Assembly: GCF_020179475.1 (NCBI RefSeq)
Contig: NZ_JAILXZ010000003.1
Coordinates: forward strand, 124,001 to 188,000
DNA: 64,000 nt
Source of the DNA: Novosphingobium huizhouense
GTDB lineage: Bacteria > Pseudomonadota > Alphaproteobacteria > Sphingomonadales > Sphingomonadaceae
Reading direction: 5' to 3'
Shown here: positions 22,241 to 25,811 of the stretch, piece after piece
Numbering within the stretch: position 1 is the stretch's first letter
Layout of the letters: each line of letters begins with the position of its first letter
Position numbers and translations under genes: made by a program
The notes under the pieces: model-generated
The model's input: only the letters and a program-made list of their open reading frames with translations
The model's database searches: none
Told to the model about the DNA's origin: nothing

Positions 22241-23062
22241 ATGCGTGTCGCTATCTGCGCTCCCTCGACCCCGTTCACCCGTGACGATGCGGCGCGCGTG
22301 GTCGCGCTGGCGGCGGCGGAGTTCCCGCAGGTTGCGCTCGATTTCCACGAGCAGTGCTTTGCGGTGGAGGGCCACTTTGCCGGGAGCGACGCGGTGCGGC
22401 TGGCGGCCTTCCTCGATTGCGCCAACGATGCCGCGTTCGACGCGGTGTGGTTCGTGCGCGGCGGTTATGGCGCAAACCGGATCGCGGCCGGCGCCGTGGC
22501 GCAGGCGGGCGTGGGTGCGCGCAACAAGCTCTATCTCGGCTATTCGGACGGCGGCACGCTGCTCGGCGCGCTTTATGGCGCGGGGGTGGGGCAGCAGGTC
22601 CATGCGCCGATGCCGACCGATATCCGGCGCAGCGGCGGCGAGGCGGCGGTGCGGCGCACGCTCGGCTTCCTGAGCGGCGCGCGCGACGGGATCGAGCCCT
22701 CGGCGGCAGCGCGCCCCCGCGTTGCGTTCAACCTGATGACGCTGGCCATGCTGCTGGGCACGCCGCTGATGCCCGACCTTGCGGGCCACGAGGTGCTGGT
22801 CGAGGAAGTGGCCGAATACGACTATGCCGTCGACCGGCTGCTGTTCCACGTCTGCCATGCCCTTGCCGCGCACGGGGCTGCCGGGCTTCGCCTCGGCCGC
22901 GTCAGCGACGTACCCGAGAACGACCGGCCGTTCGGCTTTGCGCCAGACGCCATGGCGCGGCACTGGTGCGCCGCTGCCGGCCTCGCCTTCCTGGGTTCGG
23001 CCGACATCGGCCACGATATCGACAACAAGATCGTCCCGTTCGGGCTTGCCCCGCGCGAGTGA
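22241..23062 (+). CDS. ldcA: LD-carboxypeptidase (S66 family)
   Basis: This enzyme removes the terminal D-Ala from murein tetrapeptides in the cytoplasm during recycling. The 273-residue protein has VRGGYGANRI, the nucleophile motif LGYSDGGTLL (Ser102), VEEVAEYDYAVDRLLFH with the Glu, and the C-terminal SADIGHD with the His of the Ser-Glu-His triad. The start ATG at 22241 gives MRVAICAPSTP, the usual S66 N-terminus. It is divergent from the Mur ligase, 103 bases apart. Confidence 0.9.
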   Translation: MRVAICAPSTPFTRDDAARVVALAAAEFPQVALDFHEQCFAVEGHFAGSDAVRLAAFLDCANDAAFDAVWFVRGGYGANRIAAGAVAQAGVGARNKLYLGYSDGGTLLGALYGAGVGQQVHAPMPTDIRRSGGEAAVRRTLGFLSGARDGIEPSAAARPRVAFNLMTLAMLLGTPLMPDLAGHEVLVEEVAEYDYAVDRLLFHVCHALAAHGAAGLRLGRVSDVPENDRPFGFAPDAMARHWCAAAGLAFLGSADIGHDIDNKIVPFGLAPRE

Positions 23063-23099
23063 CGGCAATAGGGCGCGCGCCCAAAGGAGCGTAGAGGAC

Positions 23100-24035
23100 A
23101 TGAGAGCTTTCGTTTTCCCGGGGCAGGGCAGCCAGAAGGTCGGCATGGGGCTGGAACTCGCCGAAGCGAGCGCCGCCGCGCGCGAAGTCTTCGAGGAAGT
23201 CGACGACGCGCTTGGCCAGAAGCTGTTCCAGATCATGAAGGAAGGGCCGGAAGACGCGCTGACGCTGACCGAGAACGCTCAGCCCGCGATCATGGCCAAC
23301 GCCATCGCCGTGTTGCGCGTGCTGGAAAAGGAAGGCGGCATTGCCCTCGCTGACAAGGCGGACTTCGTCGCGGGCCACAGCCTTGGCGAATATACCGCGC
23401 TCTGTGCCGCGGGCGCGTTCAGCCTTGCCGACACCGCGCGGTTGCTGAAGCTGCGCGGCCAGTCGATGCAGGCGGCCGTGCCGGTGGGCGTGGGCGCGAT
23501 GGCGGCGCTGCTGGGTGCCGATATCGAAAAGGCCTCGGCGCTGGCCGAAGCGGCGGCGGAAAGGGAAGTCTGCACCGTCGCCAACGACAACGACCCGACG
23601 CAGGTCGTGCTGTCCGGCCACAAGGGCGCGATCGAGCGCGCCGTGGCACTGGTCAAGGACCACGGCATCAAGCGCGGCGTGCTGCTGCCGGTTTCCGCGC
23701 CGTTCCACTGCCCGCTGATGCAGCCGGCGGCCGATGCCATGGCCGAAGCCTTCGAAAAGACGCCACCGGCCGCGCTGCGGGTGGCACTCTTCGCCAACGT
23801 GACTGCAGCGGTCGTCACCGACCCTGCCGAAGTCAAGCGCCTGCTGGTCGAGCAGGTGACCGGCCGCGTGCGCTGGCGCGAAAGCGCGATCGCCATGAAG
23901 GACGCCGGCGTCGAACAGTTCATCGAACTGGGCGGCAAGGTCCTTTCGCCCATGATCAACCGCACCGTGGCCGATGTCTCGGTTACCAGCGTCGTCGGCA
24001 TGGCCGACATCGAAGCCATCCTGAAGGATATTTGA
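23100..24035 (+). CDS. fabD: Malonyl-CoA:ACP transacylase
   Basis: FabD loads malonyl groups onto acyl carrier protein. The 311-residue protein has FPGQGSQ (6-12), GHSLGEYTAL with nucleophile Ser94, and SAPFHCPLM with His203. Length is normal. fabG follows, but a 459-bp inverted-repeat cassette lies between them, so the usual close fabD-fabG spacing is interrupted. Confidence 0.96.
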   Translation: MRAFVFPGQGSQKVGMGLELAEASAAAREVFEEVDDALGQKLFQIMKEGPEDALTLTENAQPAIMANAIAVLRVLEKEGGIALADKADFVAGHSLGEYTALCAAGAFSLADTARLLKLRGQSMQAAVPVGVGAMAALLGADIEKASALAEAAAEREVCTVANDNDPTQVVLSGHKGAIERAVALVKDHGIKRGVLLPVSAPFHCPLMQPAADAMAEAFEKTPPAALRVALFANVTAAVVTDPAEVKRLLVEQVTGRVRWRESAIAMKDAGVEQFIELGGKVLSPMINRTVADVSVTSVVGMADIEAILKDI

Positions 24036-24042
24036 TTTTTTG

Positions 24043-24072
24043 GTTCGCGCAGAGGCCGCAGAGAGCGCAGAG
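24043..24072 (+). repeat. Left 30-base arm with three GCAGAG iterons
   Basis: The arm contains GCAGAG at 24049, 24058 and 24067, a strict 9-base period. It is the exact reverse complement of 24472-24501. Confidence 0.95.
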
Positions 24073-24080
24073 GGGGCGTC

Positions 24081-24470
24081 ATGAGGATCGATGACCTTAG
24101 CGCAGTCGTTGTGCGCGAGGCTATCAAGATACATCGCGAACTTGGGCCTGGCCTGCTAGAAAGCGTTTACGAAACGGTGCTTGCGGCAGCGCTGTCGAGA
24201 AGCGGGTTGGACGTGTCGCGGCAGGTTTCGGTTCCGATCCAGTACGATGGAATGCAGATAGAAGGCGCATTCCGCATCGACATTTTGGTGGAGGGCACGC
24301 TCGTCCTGGAGGTCAAGGCGGTGGATCAATTGACCAAGGTTCATGCGCGCCAGCTTTTGACGTATCTCCGCTTGATGAAGCAGCCCGTTGGGCTGCTTTT
24401 GAATTTTTCCGGTCTGACGATGAAGGAAGGTATCCGCCGGCTGGTGAACGACTATCGTCCGGAGCAGTAG
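24081..24470 (+). CDS. GxxExxY protein, small RecB-like nuclease fold
   Basis: A 129-residue protein of the GxxExxY family. The name motif is GLLESVY (24-30). I also see a complete PD-(D/E)XK pattern: Asp67 in FRIDILV, then Glu77-Val-Lys79 in LVLEVKAV. A QxxxY motif (Gln91 to Tyr95, QLLTY) follows, as in RecB/Cas4-type nucleases. The family has no firm function in what I know; nuclease action on the flanking repeats is a hypothesis. No membrane segment or signal peptide is present. Stop and right repeat arm are almost touching. Confidence 0.9.
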   Translation: MRIDDLSAVVVREAIKIHRELGPGLLESVYETVLAAALSRSGLDVSRQVSVPIQYDGMQIEGAFRIDILVEGTLVLEVKAVDQLTKVHARQLLTYLRLMKQPVGLLLNFSGLTMKEGIRRLVNDYRPEQ

Positions 24471-24471
24471 T

Positions 24472-24501
24472 CTCTGCGCTCTCTGCGGCCTCTGCGCGAA
24501 C
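24472..24501 (-). repeat. Right 30-base arm, inverse copy
   Basis: CTCTGC words recur with a 9-base period, mirroring the left arm without mismatch. The arm ends 18 bases before the fabG start and just before its GGAG ribosome site. Confidence 0.95.
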
Positions 24502-24519
24502 TACAAATGGAGCAACATC

Positions 24520-25284
24520 ATGGAAAATCGCCTGTTCGATCTTAGCGGCATGACCGCCCTCGTGACCGGCGCGGCCGGTGGCATCGGCTCGGCGATCAGC
24601 CATGCGCTGGCGCGGCAGGGGGCGCGGCTGGCGCTGTCGGGGACCAATCCGGCCAAGCTGCGCGCCTTTCGCGAGGAGCTGAACGACACCTACGGCCACG
24701 ATCATGTCGAGATCACCTGCGACCTTTCGAACACCGAGCAGGTCGAGCACCTGGTCCCCGCAGCGATCGACACACTGGGCAAGATCGACATCCTGGTGAA
24801 CAACGCCGGCATCACGCGCGACAACCTCGCCATGCGCATGAAGGACGAGGAATGGGACGCGGTGATCAAGGTCAACCTCGAGGCCGCGTTCCGCCTGATG
24901 CGCGCGGCGACCAAGCCGATGATGAAGGCGCGCTTCGGCCGCATCGTCACGGTGACGAGCGTGGTCGGCGCCACCGGCAATCCGGGGCAGGTCAACTATG
25001 CCGCGGCCAAGGCCGGCCTCGTCGGCATGAGCAAGTCGCTGGGCCAGGAACTCGCCAGCCGCAACATCACCGTCAACTGCGTCGCGCCGGGGTTCATCCG
25101 CACCGCCATGACCGACGTGCTGCCCGATGCGCAGAAGGACGCGCTCAACGCGCGCATCCCGATGGGCCGGATGGGCGAGGGCAGTGACATCGGCGCGGCC
25201 GTGGCCTACCTCGCCAGCAAGGAAGCGGGCTACGTCACCGGGCAGACGTTGCACGTCAACGGCGGCATGGCGATGCTTTCGTGA
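24520..25284 (+). CDS. fabG: 3-oxoacyl-ACP reductase
   Basis: FabG reduces 3-oxoacyl-ACP with NADPH in fatty-acid elongation. The 254-residue SDR protein has the cofactor motif GAAGGIG (17-23), NNAG (94-97), catalytic Ser147, Tyr160 and Lys164 (NYAAAK), and the end TLHVNGGMAM. It starts with ATG at 24520 behind GGAG and overlaps the next gene by 4 bases. Confidence 0.96.
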   Translation: MENRLFDLSGMTALVTGAAGGIGSAISHALARQGARLALSGTNPAKLRAFREELNDTYGHDHVEITCDLSNTEQVEHLVPAAIDTLGKIDILVNNAGITRDNLAMRMKDEEWDAVIKVNLEAAFRLMRAATKPMMKARFGRIVTVTSVVGATGNPGQVNYAAAKAGLVGMSKSLGQELASRNITVNCVAPGFIRTAMTDVLPDAQKDALNARIPMGRMGEGSDIGAAVAYLASKEAGYVTGQTLHVNGGMAMLS

Positions 25285-25811
25285 CGCTGCGCGCGCTCCT
25301 TGTCGCGCCGGCGCTGCTGTTGGCCGGCGCACAAGGGGCGCAGGCGCGCTCGCCCGAGGCGCTGGCCTGCGCGGTCAAGGCCGCGCCTGCCGGGCTCGAC
25401 GCGCAAGTCGCCGACGTGATCGTGATGCAGGACCCTGCGCGCGGCAAACCGACGCTCGACGCGCTGCGCGCCGTGGTCGAATCCTGCGCGCGCGACCAGT
25501 TCCTGAACGACAAGCAGACCGACGCCTACTTCGACTACACGCTGGGGCGGATGGGGCGCGACGTGCTCGACGCGCGGCTCGCGGCCATCGGTATCCGGGT
25601 CGCGCTGATCGACGAGGCGCTCGACATCGGTCCGGGCCGGGCCAACAACCCTGCCGAGAAGGTCACCCAGGGCGATCTCAACCGGATCACGGCGGCCTTG
25701 CGCGAGGCGGGCACCGATCCGGCGGCGATCGATGCCGATGGCTGGCGGCTGGTCACCGCGTGGATCGCCGCGACGGCGACCATGTTCGATGGCCTGCGCC
25801 GCACCGACTGA
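25281..25811 (+). CDS. Exported protein of unknown function
   Basis: A 176-residue protein starting with GTG inside the fabG stop (GTGA overlap), so translation is coupled. Residues 1-22 (TLRALLVAPALLLAGAQGAQA) are a signal peptide. The mature part is mostly helical, with two Cys (LACAVK, ESCARDQ) that could form a disulfide. I do not recognise a family. The position after fabG says little, as an exported protein would not act in cytoplasmic fatty-acid synthesis. Confidence 0.7.
   Translation: MTLRALLVAPALLLAGAQGAQARSPEALACAVKAAPAGLDAQVADVIVMQDPARGKPTLDALRAVVESCARDQFLNDKQTDAYFDYTLGRMGRDVLDARLAAIGIRVALIDEALDIGPGRANNPAEKVTQGDLNRITAALREAGTDPAAIDADGWRLVTAWIAATATMFDGLRRTD

Follow-up and report, generated by a model that had tools for sequence, protein, structure and literature searches.

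The DNA analysed here, a stretch of 64,000 nt from Novosphingobium huizhouense that we call the window, contains a small nuclease-like gene that is enclosed by two inverted repeats and lies between two genes that we take to be fabD and fabG. This arrangement raises the question of what gene and repeats are to each other. An earlier note on this DNA had suggested that both together form a mobile unit without a transposase, whose nuclease recognises its own ends, or else a selfish or defence element. Here, we compare the cassette with related genes, with their flanking repeats and with copies of such repeats that lack a gene, in genome collections holding one genome per species.

A single PD-(D/E)XK gene between matching arms

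The exact reverse complementarity over 30 nt that had been reported for the two arms (24043-24072 and 24472-24501) was confirmed in the sequence, and the full arm pair (Table 1) is the longest inverted repeat in the interval 23000-25600 (36 nt, 94%), followed by one named I2 with 27 nt at 74%. Each arm consists of three tandem 9-mers, CGCAGAGNN, a point absent from the earlier note, in the layout CGCAGAGGC CGCAGAGAG CGCAGAG, which points inward on both sides. Neither a GTAG nor a CGTC tag is present in these arms. As described before, the arms enclose one gene only, a PF13366 member, with no transposase, integrase or other gene beside it, and the gene cluster around them is entirely on one strand.

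Table 1 Positions of the cassette, its repeat units and its neighbours in the window
Feature	Position	Strand	Basis
fabD, on the left of the home site	23100..24035	+	ATG at 23100; orthologue adjoins fabG in relatives
Left arm	24037..24072	+	36-nt inverted repeat at 94%, 24043-24072 perfect
CGCAGAG units of the left arm	24048-24054, 24057-24063, 24066-24072	+	pattern search
GxxExxY / PDDEXK_3 gene, predicted nuclease, 129 aa	24081..24470	+	ORF, profile matches, invariant catalytic residues, model pLDDT 94
Right arm, inverted copy of the left	24472..24507	-	inverted-repeat search
CGCAGAG units of the right arm	24472-24478, 24481-24487, 24490-24496	-	pattern search
fabG, on the right of the home site	24520..25284	+	ORF; orthologue beside fabD in relatives

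The gene product matches PF13366 (PDDEXK_3; E 9e-39, 132.9 bits against a cut-off of 22), its sole Pfam match at E up to 0.001, and is a full-length member of TIGR04256 (GxxExxY; E 4.4e-38, 130.2 bits against a cut-off of 35). S23 (PF05635), the protein of 23S rRNA intervening sequences, was not matched in the Pfam search. Across 28 aligned homologues Gly22, Gly24, Glu27, Tyr30, Asp67, Glu77, Lys79, Gln91 and Tyr95 are invariant; Gln91 and Tyr95 belong to the motif called QxxxY. The nuclease assignment made from motifs thus held, with an invariant core of Asp67, Glu77 and Lys79 and a predicted restriction-endonuclease-like fold in the AlphaFold model (pLDDT 94). The top PDB match of this model was Cas4 SSO0001 (Foldseek E 1.6e-3); the comparison with 4ic1, which we take to be a Cas4, gave Z 9.5 and rmsd 3.7 over 103 residues, and that with the archaeal Holliday junction resolvase Hjc (1gef) gave Z 7.2 and rmsd 3.3 over 86 residues, where a structural Z below 8 may reflect merely a common arrangement. 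By sequence and model the 129-aa protein is a member of the PD-(D/E)XK superfamily and a predicted nuclease. Codon comparisons showed purifying selection on the gene, with dN/dS of 0.05-0.16 in six of eight pairs (dS 1.3-3.2) and saturation in the other two. A search with PADLOC returned weak matches only, to Cas4 and to an RT-associated PDDEXK (best E 2.6e-5), at a home site that is a fatty-acid gene pair, and a PHROG search of the protein returned no match.

Inverted arms accompany many GxxExxY genes

Loci of GxxExxY genes were sampled from the bacterial family of the window, from other Proteobacteria and from named genomes including Verrucomicrobia, Planctomycetes, Cyanobacteria, Bacteroidetes, Chloroflexi, Acidobacteria and Methanosarcinales. 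After removal of near-duplicates, 137 of 143 loci could be used in a strict search for tandem CRCRRAG (short flanks were dropped), and the motif was found on the plus strand upstream in 84, on the minus strand downstream in 95 and on both sides in 67 of them, compared with 10, 6 and 0 of 524 shifted control frames of the same size. In the wrong orientation it occurred in 13/137 and 9/137. Prior to the removal of near-duplicates the two-sided count was 69/141 against 0/540 controls (141 of 147 loci used). The two-sided strict motif was failed by 70/137 genes, and as the units vary (CGCAGAG, CGCGGAG, CGCAAAG, CACGAAG and CACAGATGAA), it undercounts the arms. Inward tandem arms were found at GxxExxY genes in several phyla, and arms like those of the cassette accompany about half or more of these genes (both-sided 67/137 against 0/524), a point that the earlier note had proposed to check. 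These comparisons show that many GxxExxY genes have inverted arms of their own, built of tandem 8-10-bp units.

For the analysis of the arms themselves, 118 of 167 distinct loci were kept, 38 being left out for lack of an inverted repeat scoring 16 or for short flanks and 11 for lack of the motif; 115 of the 118 share no 60-mer, and the loci L104, L185 and L186 lie outside this set. The element has a median length of 462 bp, the left arm ending a median of 7 nt before the start codon and the right arm starting a median of 2 nt after the stop codon, with an overlap of the right arm and the end of the ORF in 44 of the 118. When a left arm was compared with all right arms, its best match was its own right arm in 98/118 elements, and in one genome (G168) eight paralogues have eight different private arm pairs. 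At the DNA level, arms differ between elements but agree within one. A cross-locus control of the arms was weak (48/80 loci significant), because the unit is common to unrelated elements and flanks recur between loci. Mismatches between the arms of gene-bearing elements were compatible with G-U pairing in 101 cases and incompatible in 103, and in the absence of such a bias nothing points to selection for an RNA stem.

Arm sequences covary with the protein

Protein distance and arm distance were correlated over all 118 loci (r 0.48, 0/500 permutations), in the family subset of 49 (r 0.64, 0/1000), in the 47 named loci L114-L184 (r 0.44, 0/1000) and, as the weakest of the four sets, in the eight G168 paralogues (r 0.40, 34/1000). 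Of all alignment columns, that of residue 7, located in the N-terminal helix, tells most about base 5 of the unit. Among the 69 elements with G-type arms, Ser or Thr stands at this position in all 66 that have a residue there (three have a gap), and among the 46 with A-type arms Ala, Cys, Val or Ile, mostly Ala, was found in 39, the seven exceptions all being Ser. On a single FastTree tree of 234 branches, built without that column, five of ten changes in arm class share branch and direction with one of seven changes at residue 7, and the other five do not. The coincidence has an uncorrected p of 9e-7 in a scan of about 390 column-position tests and makes residue 7 the top column, V103 and D4 coming next. 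In none of the 118 elements does the left arm extend to codon 7, so the link between residue 7 and base 5 is not an artefact of shared nucleotides. Single cases go both ways: one element (L018, in G013) combines CGCTAAG/CGCAAAG arms with Ala7 as a single tip beside Ser/Thr relatives, and L106 has kept Ser7 despite A-type arms. The suggestion that the nuclease recognises its own ends is well supported by this covariation, and the GxxExxY protein probably recognises its flanking arms.

Residence of the gene between fabD and fabG

Among 30 fetched congeneric fabD-fabG loci, our own included, seven hold the GxxExxY gene and three hold remnants (arms or a truncated gene); fabD and fabG abut or overlap in 11, and unrelated DNA lies between them in nine. 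The gene is present in 40/199 genomes of the family, with one match in 30 of these 40 and more than one in 10. The gene is located between fabD and fabG in 15/30 fetched family loci, always in the same orientation, and in 15/80 named loci. On a midpoint-rooted tree of 34 proteins, the 21 genes from fabD-fabG require 4 label changes (mean of shuffles 10.7; 0/500 as low) and make up the backbone, within which 6 of the 13 genes from other sites are nested. Taken together, this distribution reads as a long, mainly vertical residence at fabD-fabG with repeated loss and occasional escape. The earlier description of the cassette as inserted between the two genes holds in the long term, given the empty sites in relatives, but related genera carry the gene there too, and a recent insertion was rejected in view of its presence at the same site in other genera despite the empty sites among congeners. 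One fabD-GxxExxY-fabG locus of Sphingomonas-like character (L109) is on a contig titled Arthrobacter sp. TPD3018, a genome that is probably mislabelled or contaminated.

With the window protein as query, the gene was found in 8/72,556 plasmids and in 0/50,697 phages, and three loci were located in viral contigs; given this near-absence from plasmids and phages, plasmid or phage cargo was rejected. A direct flank match of at least 5 nt, as expected of a target duplication, was seen at 1/117 gene elements compared with 2.7% in shuffles, with junctions that are uncertain by a few nt and no exact junction definable. A unit whose main lifestyle is to move together with its gene, as had been envisaged, does not agree with the predominance of fabD-fabG in the family, the tree backbone and the plasmid and phage counts. 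The earlier note had named two observations as jointly speaking against its reading: the common place with vertical descent was largely found, and the lack of such repeats at other GxxExxY genes proved false. Among what is dispersed, arm pairs that lack the gene predominate.

Gene-free hairpins with arms of the same kind

In the genome of the window, the arm pattern with up to 2 mismatches occurs at 13 sites, compared with one for a reversed control pattern. The cassette's own arms account for two of them. Among the remainder, two are single and most are arranged as four inverted pairs with no PF13366 gene between them. The family pattern GCAGAGN{1,3}CGCRRAGN{1,3}CGCRRAG, which favours GCAGAG-type repeats, was found in 29/199 genomes (reversed control, 8), namely in 22/40 genomes with PF13366 and 7/159 without (p 8.5e-13). 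After subtraction of two arms per gene-bearing genome, 12/40 and 7/159 remained (p 1.7e-5). Within the genus, at least four repeats were present in 7/7 gene-bearing and 6/30 gene-less genomes (p 1.7e-4). A gene fragment in G031 is scored as gene-less in these counts. Gene-free hairpins with such arms were thereby shown to be dispersed, chiefly in gene-bearing genomes. For Y1_Tnp, the RAYT-type enzyme, there was no association with the repeats (5/32 against 24/167 genomes, p 0.79), and a RAYT as their general driver was rejected on this ground, the composites with REPs in G168 described below notwithstanding.

The gene-less congeners that hold repeats (G002, G004, G007, G018, G020 and G034, with 4-85 repeats each) argue against a simple dependence of the repeats on the gene. 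This applies above all to G007, in which 85 CGCNNAG-type 8-mer repeats occur and no PF13366 gene; gene loss, or another driver of the repeats, may account for such genomes.

The fit of the dispersed repeats to the resident gene was examined in 21 genomes on those listed repeats that fit one rule, the list giving the first places per genome. These repeats were closer to the arms of the resident gene than to those of other genomes (mean score 14.03 against 12.84 when permuted, 61/20,000), and among them the own gene's arms ranked first in 6/21 genomes, among the top three in 10/21 and in the lower half in 7/21 (G114, G224, G195, G220, G102, G182 and G252). A hand-picked partial list (12 genomes typed, 11 used, with G182, G220 and G028 omitted) gave 0/20,000, a cleaner result than the rule-based test. 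In G009, G023, G028, G182 and G220 9-mer repeats occur although gene arms are mostly 8-mer. By this comparison, dispersed repeats do match the arms of the resident gene, but loosely.

The arms within gene-free pairs also agree beyond chance, with 38/10,000 shuffles as low for 27 pairs chosen by rule (G209, whose two pairs differ in length, lies outside this comparison) and 0/10,000 for 44 hand-picked pairs from seven genomes. The matching is strong in G023 and G168 and was not found in G011, G139, G154 and G231. Three gene-free elements, as single strands, fold far better than shuffles (z -6.8, -8.3 and -4.0). In 81 loci, 53 further inverted arm pairs were present, 50 of which span less than 200 nt, while the three longer ones (more than 250 nt) hold a GxxExxY gene (L177) and two HsdS-like stretches (L137). 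In the latter locus (L137:4863-6563), which belongs to a type I restriction system, arm-like inverted units are in frame within the HsdS-like stretches and could shuffle or extend specificity subunits.

Other arrangements were observed as well. G168, which has a Y1_Tnp match, contains many hairpins with CGCAAAG or CGCGGAG arms inside REP-like palindromes that mostly start with CGTCGGCCCCGC (L294-L301 and L306-L310). The composite of such a hairpin and a CGTC-tagged REP pair occurs in many copies, two repeat systems being stacked in it, and these hairpins may have spread along with the REPs. In a group of four loci, L220, L225 and L226 have closely spaced outward-facing arms with cores 21 nt apart and L223 has an inward pair with a 15-nt loop, a spacing that may reflect how breaks are joined.

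Sites that differ between relatives

Outside the window, the same genome carries a nested hairpin pair (L230:270-505; contig C33, about 87970-88205) in frame within an error-prone polymerase-type gene, whose best NCBIfam match is NF004225 (E 2.1e-121, 466 residues read). The insert lies between '...WDCTLE' and 'IALRLGLRQ...'. The same polymerase gene has no insert in G009, G003 and G011, and in G028 and G018 similar outer arms surround another inner hairpin, placed at roughly the same codon. The CGCGGAG units of the inner hairpin in G028 are the units of that genome's own fabD-fabG gene. At another site, an arm in G009 has the same unusual 11-nt spacer as the arms of its own gene, 9-mer arms are present in G011 and in the genome of the window, and none in six relatives. 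A hairpin nested in a hairpin was seen also in G126. Filled, emptied and empty states occur at fabD-fabG, in the polymerase gene and at this third place.

A possible mode of action and its alternatives

Judging from the sequence comparisons and by analogy, we lean towards the view that a nuclease-repeat system, REPIN-RAYT-like in its logic, has its resident master copy in the cassette. The 129-aa PD-(D/E)XK protein would bind the tandem units, with residue 7 of the N-terminal helix reading base 5, and would cut DNA at inverted arm pairs. Through breakage and repair there, short arm-loop-arm hairpins would be copied or moved elsewhere, often landing in older elements of like kind, and this spread would leave no target duplication. 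The same process would keep the two arms of each element similar. Movement of the gene would be rare, and mainly vertical descent would keep it at its home site, here fabD-fabG. Arm breaks filled by repair agree better with nested insertion and with the lack of target duplications than transposase-type strand transfer does. Binding, cutting, and cutting as the cause of spread and homogenisation are what we infer. A wider generalisation is offered tentatively, with a little less than even confidence: GxxExxY proteins would be sequence-specific nucleases of an undescribed dispersed-repeat class in several bacterial phyla and archaea, which read 8-10-bp tandem units, choose G or A at base 5 through residue 7 and drive palindrome spread and arm homogenisation in trans, their own gene being a domesticated resident.

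A minimal autonomous transposon, in which the nuclease cuts both arms and the whole cassette moves, appears unlikely to us. The arms do touch the gene, with median gaps of 7 nt to the start codon and 2 nt from the stop codon, six genes from elsewhere nest in the fabD-fabG clade, and in other phyla the gene occupies many other sites. Along the family tree, however, it is found mainly at fabD-fabG, with a single match in 30 of 40 gene-bearing genomes; 8 of 72,556 plasmids, none of 50,697 phages and three loci in viral contigs had it, target duplication (1/117 against 2.7% in shuffles) gives no support, and the cassette has neither integrase nor transposase. Rather improbable, too, is a model in which arm binding only controls the protein's own gene or tames breaks and another enzyme, for example a RAYT, spreads the hairpins. 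An operator needs no matching inverted copy behind the stop codon, and the repeats, which are unassociated with Y1_Tnp (p 0.79), are strongly associated with PF13366; what the model can draw on is the left arm ending a median of 7 nt before the start codon, the composites inside CGTC-tagged REPs in G168 with its Y1_Tnp match, the 85 repeats of G007 with no gene, and the loose fit of repeats to resident arms.

We give little credence to a defence or housekeeping nuclease for branch or cruciform cleavage whose arms would be incidental. The fold is nearest to Cas4 SSO0001 and, with a lower score, to archaeal Hjc, and the weak PADLOC matches to Cas4 and RT-associated PDDEXK point the same way, but there is no PHROG match, no partner gene lies between the arms here, and the arms are private to each paralogue and covary with the protein. 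Least credible of all is a function of the complementary arms as an RNA stem, for processing, for stability or as an intron-like insert of the kind seen in the intervening sequences of 23S rRNA: complementarity itself and the position of the home-site arms within a one-strand gene cluster would suit it, whereas the mismatches lack a G-U bias (101 against 103) and the arms vary together with the sequence of the protein itself.

The reading as a resident nuclease with dispersed repeats ties the GxxExxY family to a visible candidate substrate, its arms, and offers a testable recognition code in the form of residue 7 and base 5. It also provides a candidate cause for genome repeats of the CGCAGAG/CACGAAG type that otherwise resemble noise, and the family may be a source of small DNA-binding nucleases with selectable specificity.

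Comparison with known systems

We know of no role for GxxExxY, an annotated family to which the profile libraries used attach no function under this name or as PDDEXK_3. In literature that leaves most subscription journals outside its coverage, no paper with 'PDDEXK_3' was found, GxxExxY is mentioned in passing only, with no link to repeats found, and six arm unit sequences occur only in unrelated papers, with no link to GxxExxY. Cassette and dispersed arms, as compared here, suggest an undescribed kind of repeat-spreading DNA system.

Cas4 carries an iron-sulphur cluster held by four cysteines. The cassette protein shares its predicted fold with Cas4/RecB-type nucleases and archaeal Hjc, as well as the QxxxY motif, but in contrast to Cas4 its 129 residues include no cysteine and hence it would have no iron-sulphur cluster, and its neighbours are fabD and fabG rather than cas genes. 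From a classical IS or MITE the cassette differs in having no transposase between its inverted repeats and no target-site duplication seen. With MITEs and with the Rickettsia palindromic elements, which according to one report insert in frame within coding genes (PMC10969869), the system has short gene-free hairpins in common, one of them here in frame in a coding gene; it differs from both in that no target duplication was seen and a candidate dedicated nuclease has been identified.

The closest likeness is to the REPIN-RAYT system or 'REPtron'. RAYTs are described as single-copy genes beside REPINs of their own flavour, with several flavours that each have their enzyme (PMC3116915), as coevolving with their REPs (PMC8266576), and REP hairpins as tagged with GTAG or CGTC (PMC3733652). 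Similarly, a mostly vertically inherited enzyme gene, single-copy in 30/40 genomes, resides here alongside dispersed inverted doublets of its own type, and the enzyme-repeat coevolution described for RAYTs has its counterpart in the covariation of protein and arms. The enzyme, in contrast, is a predicted PD-(D/E)XK nuclease instead of an HUH/Y1 transposase, and tandem 8-10-mers on both sides take the place of tagged REP palindromes. By analogy, the GxxExxY system is thus a counterpart of REPIN-RAYT but no member of it and unrelated to it, and, if the proposed mode of action is true, it would accomplish the task of RAYTs and REPINs in a second way, by an enzyme unrelated to theirs.
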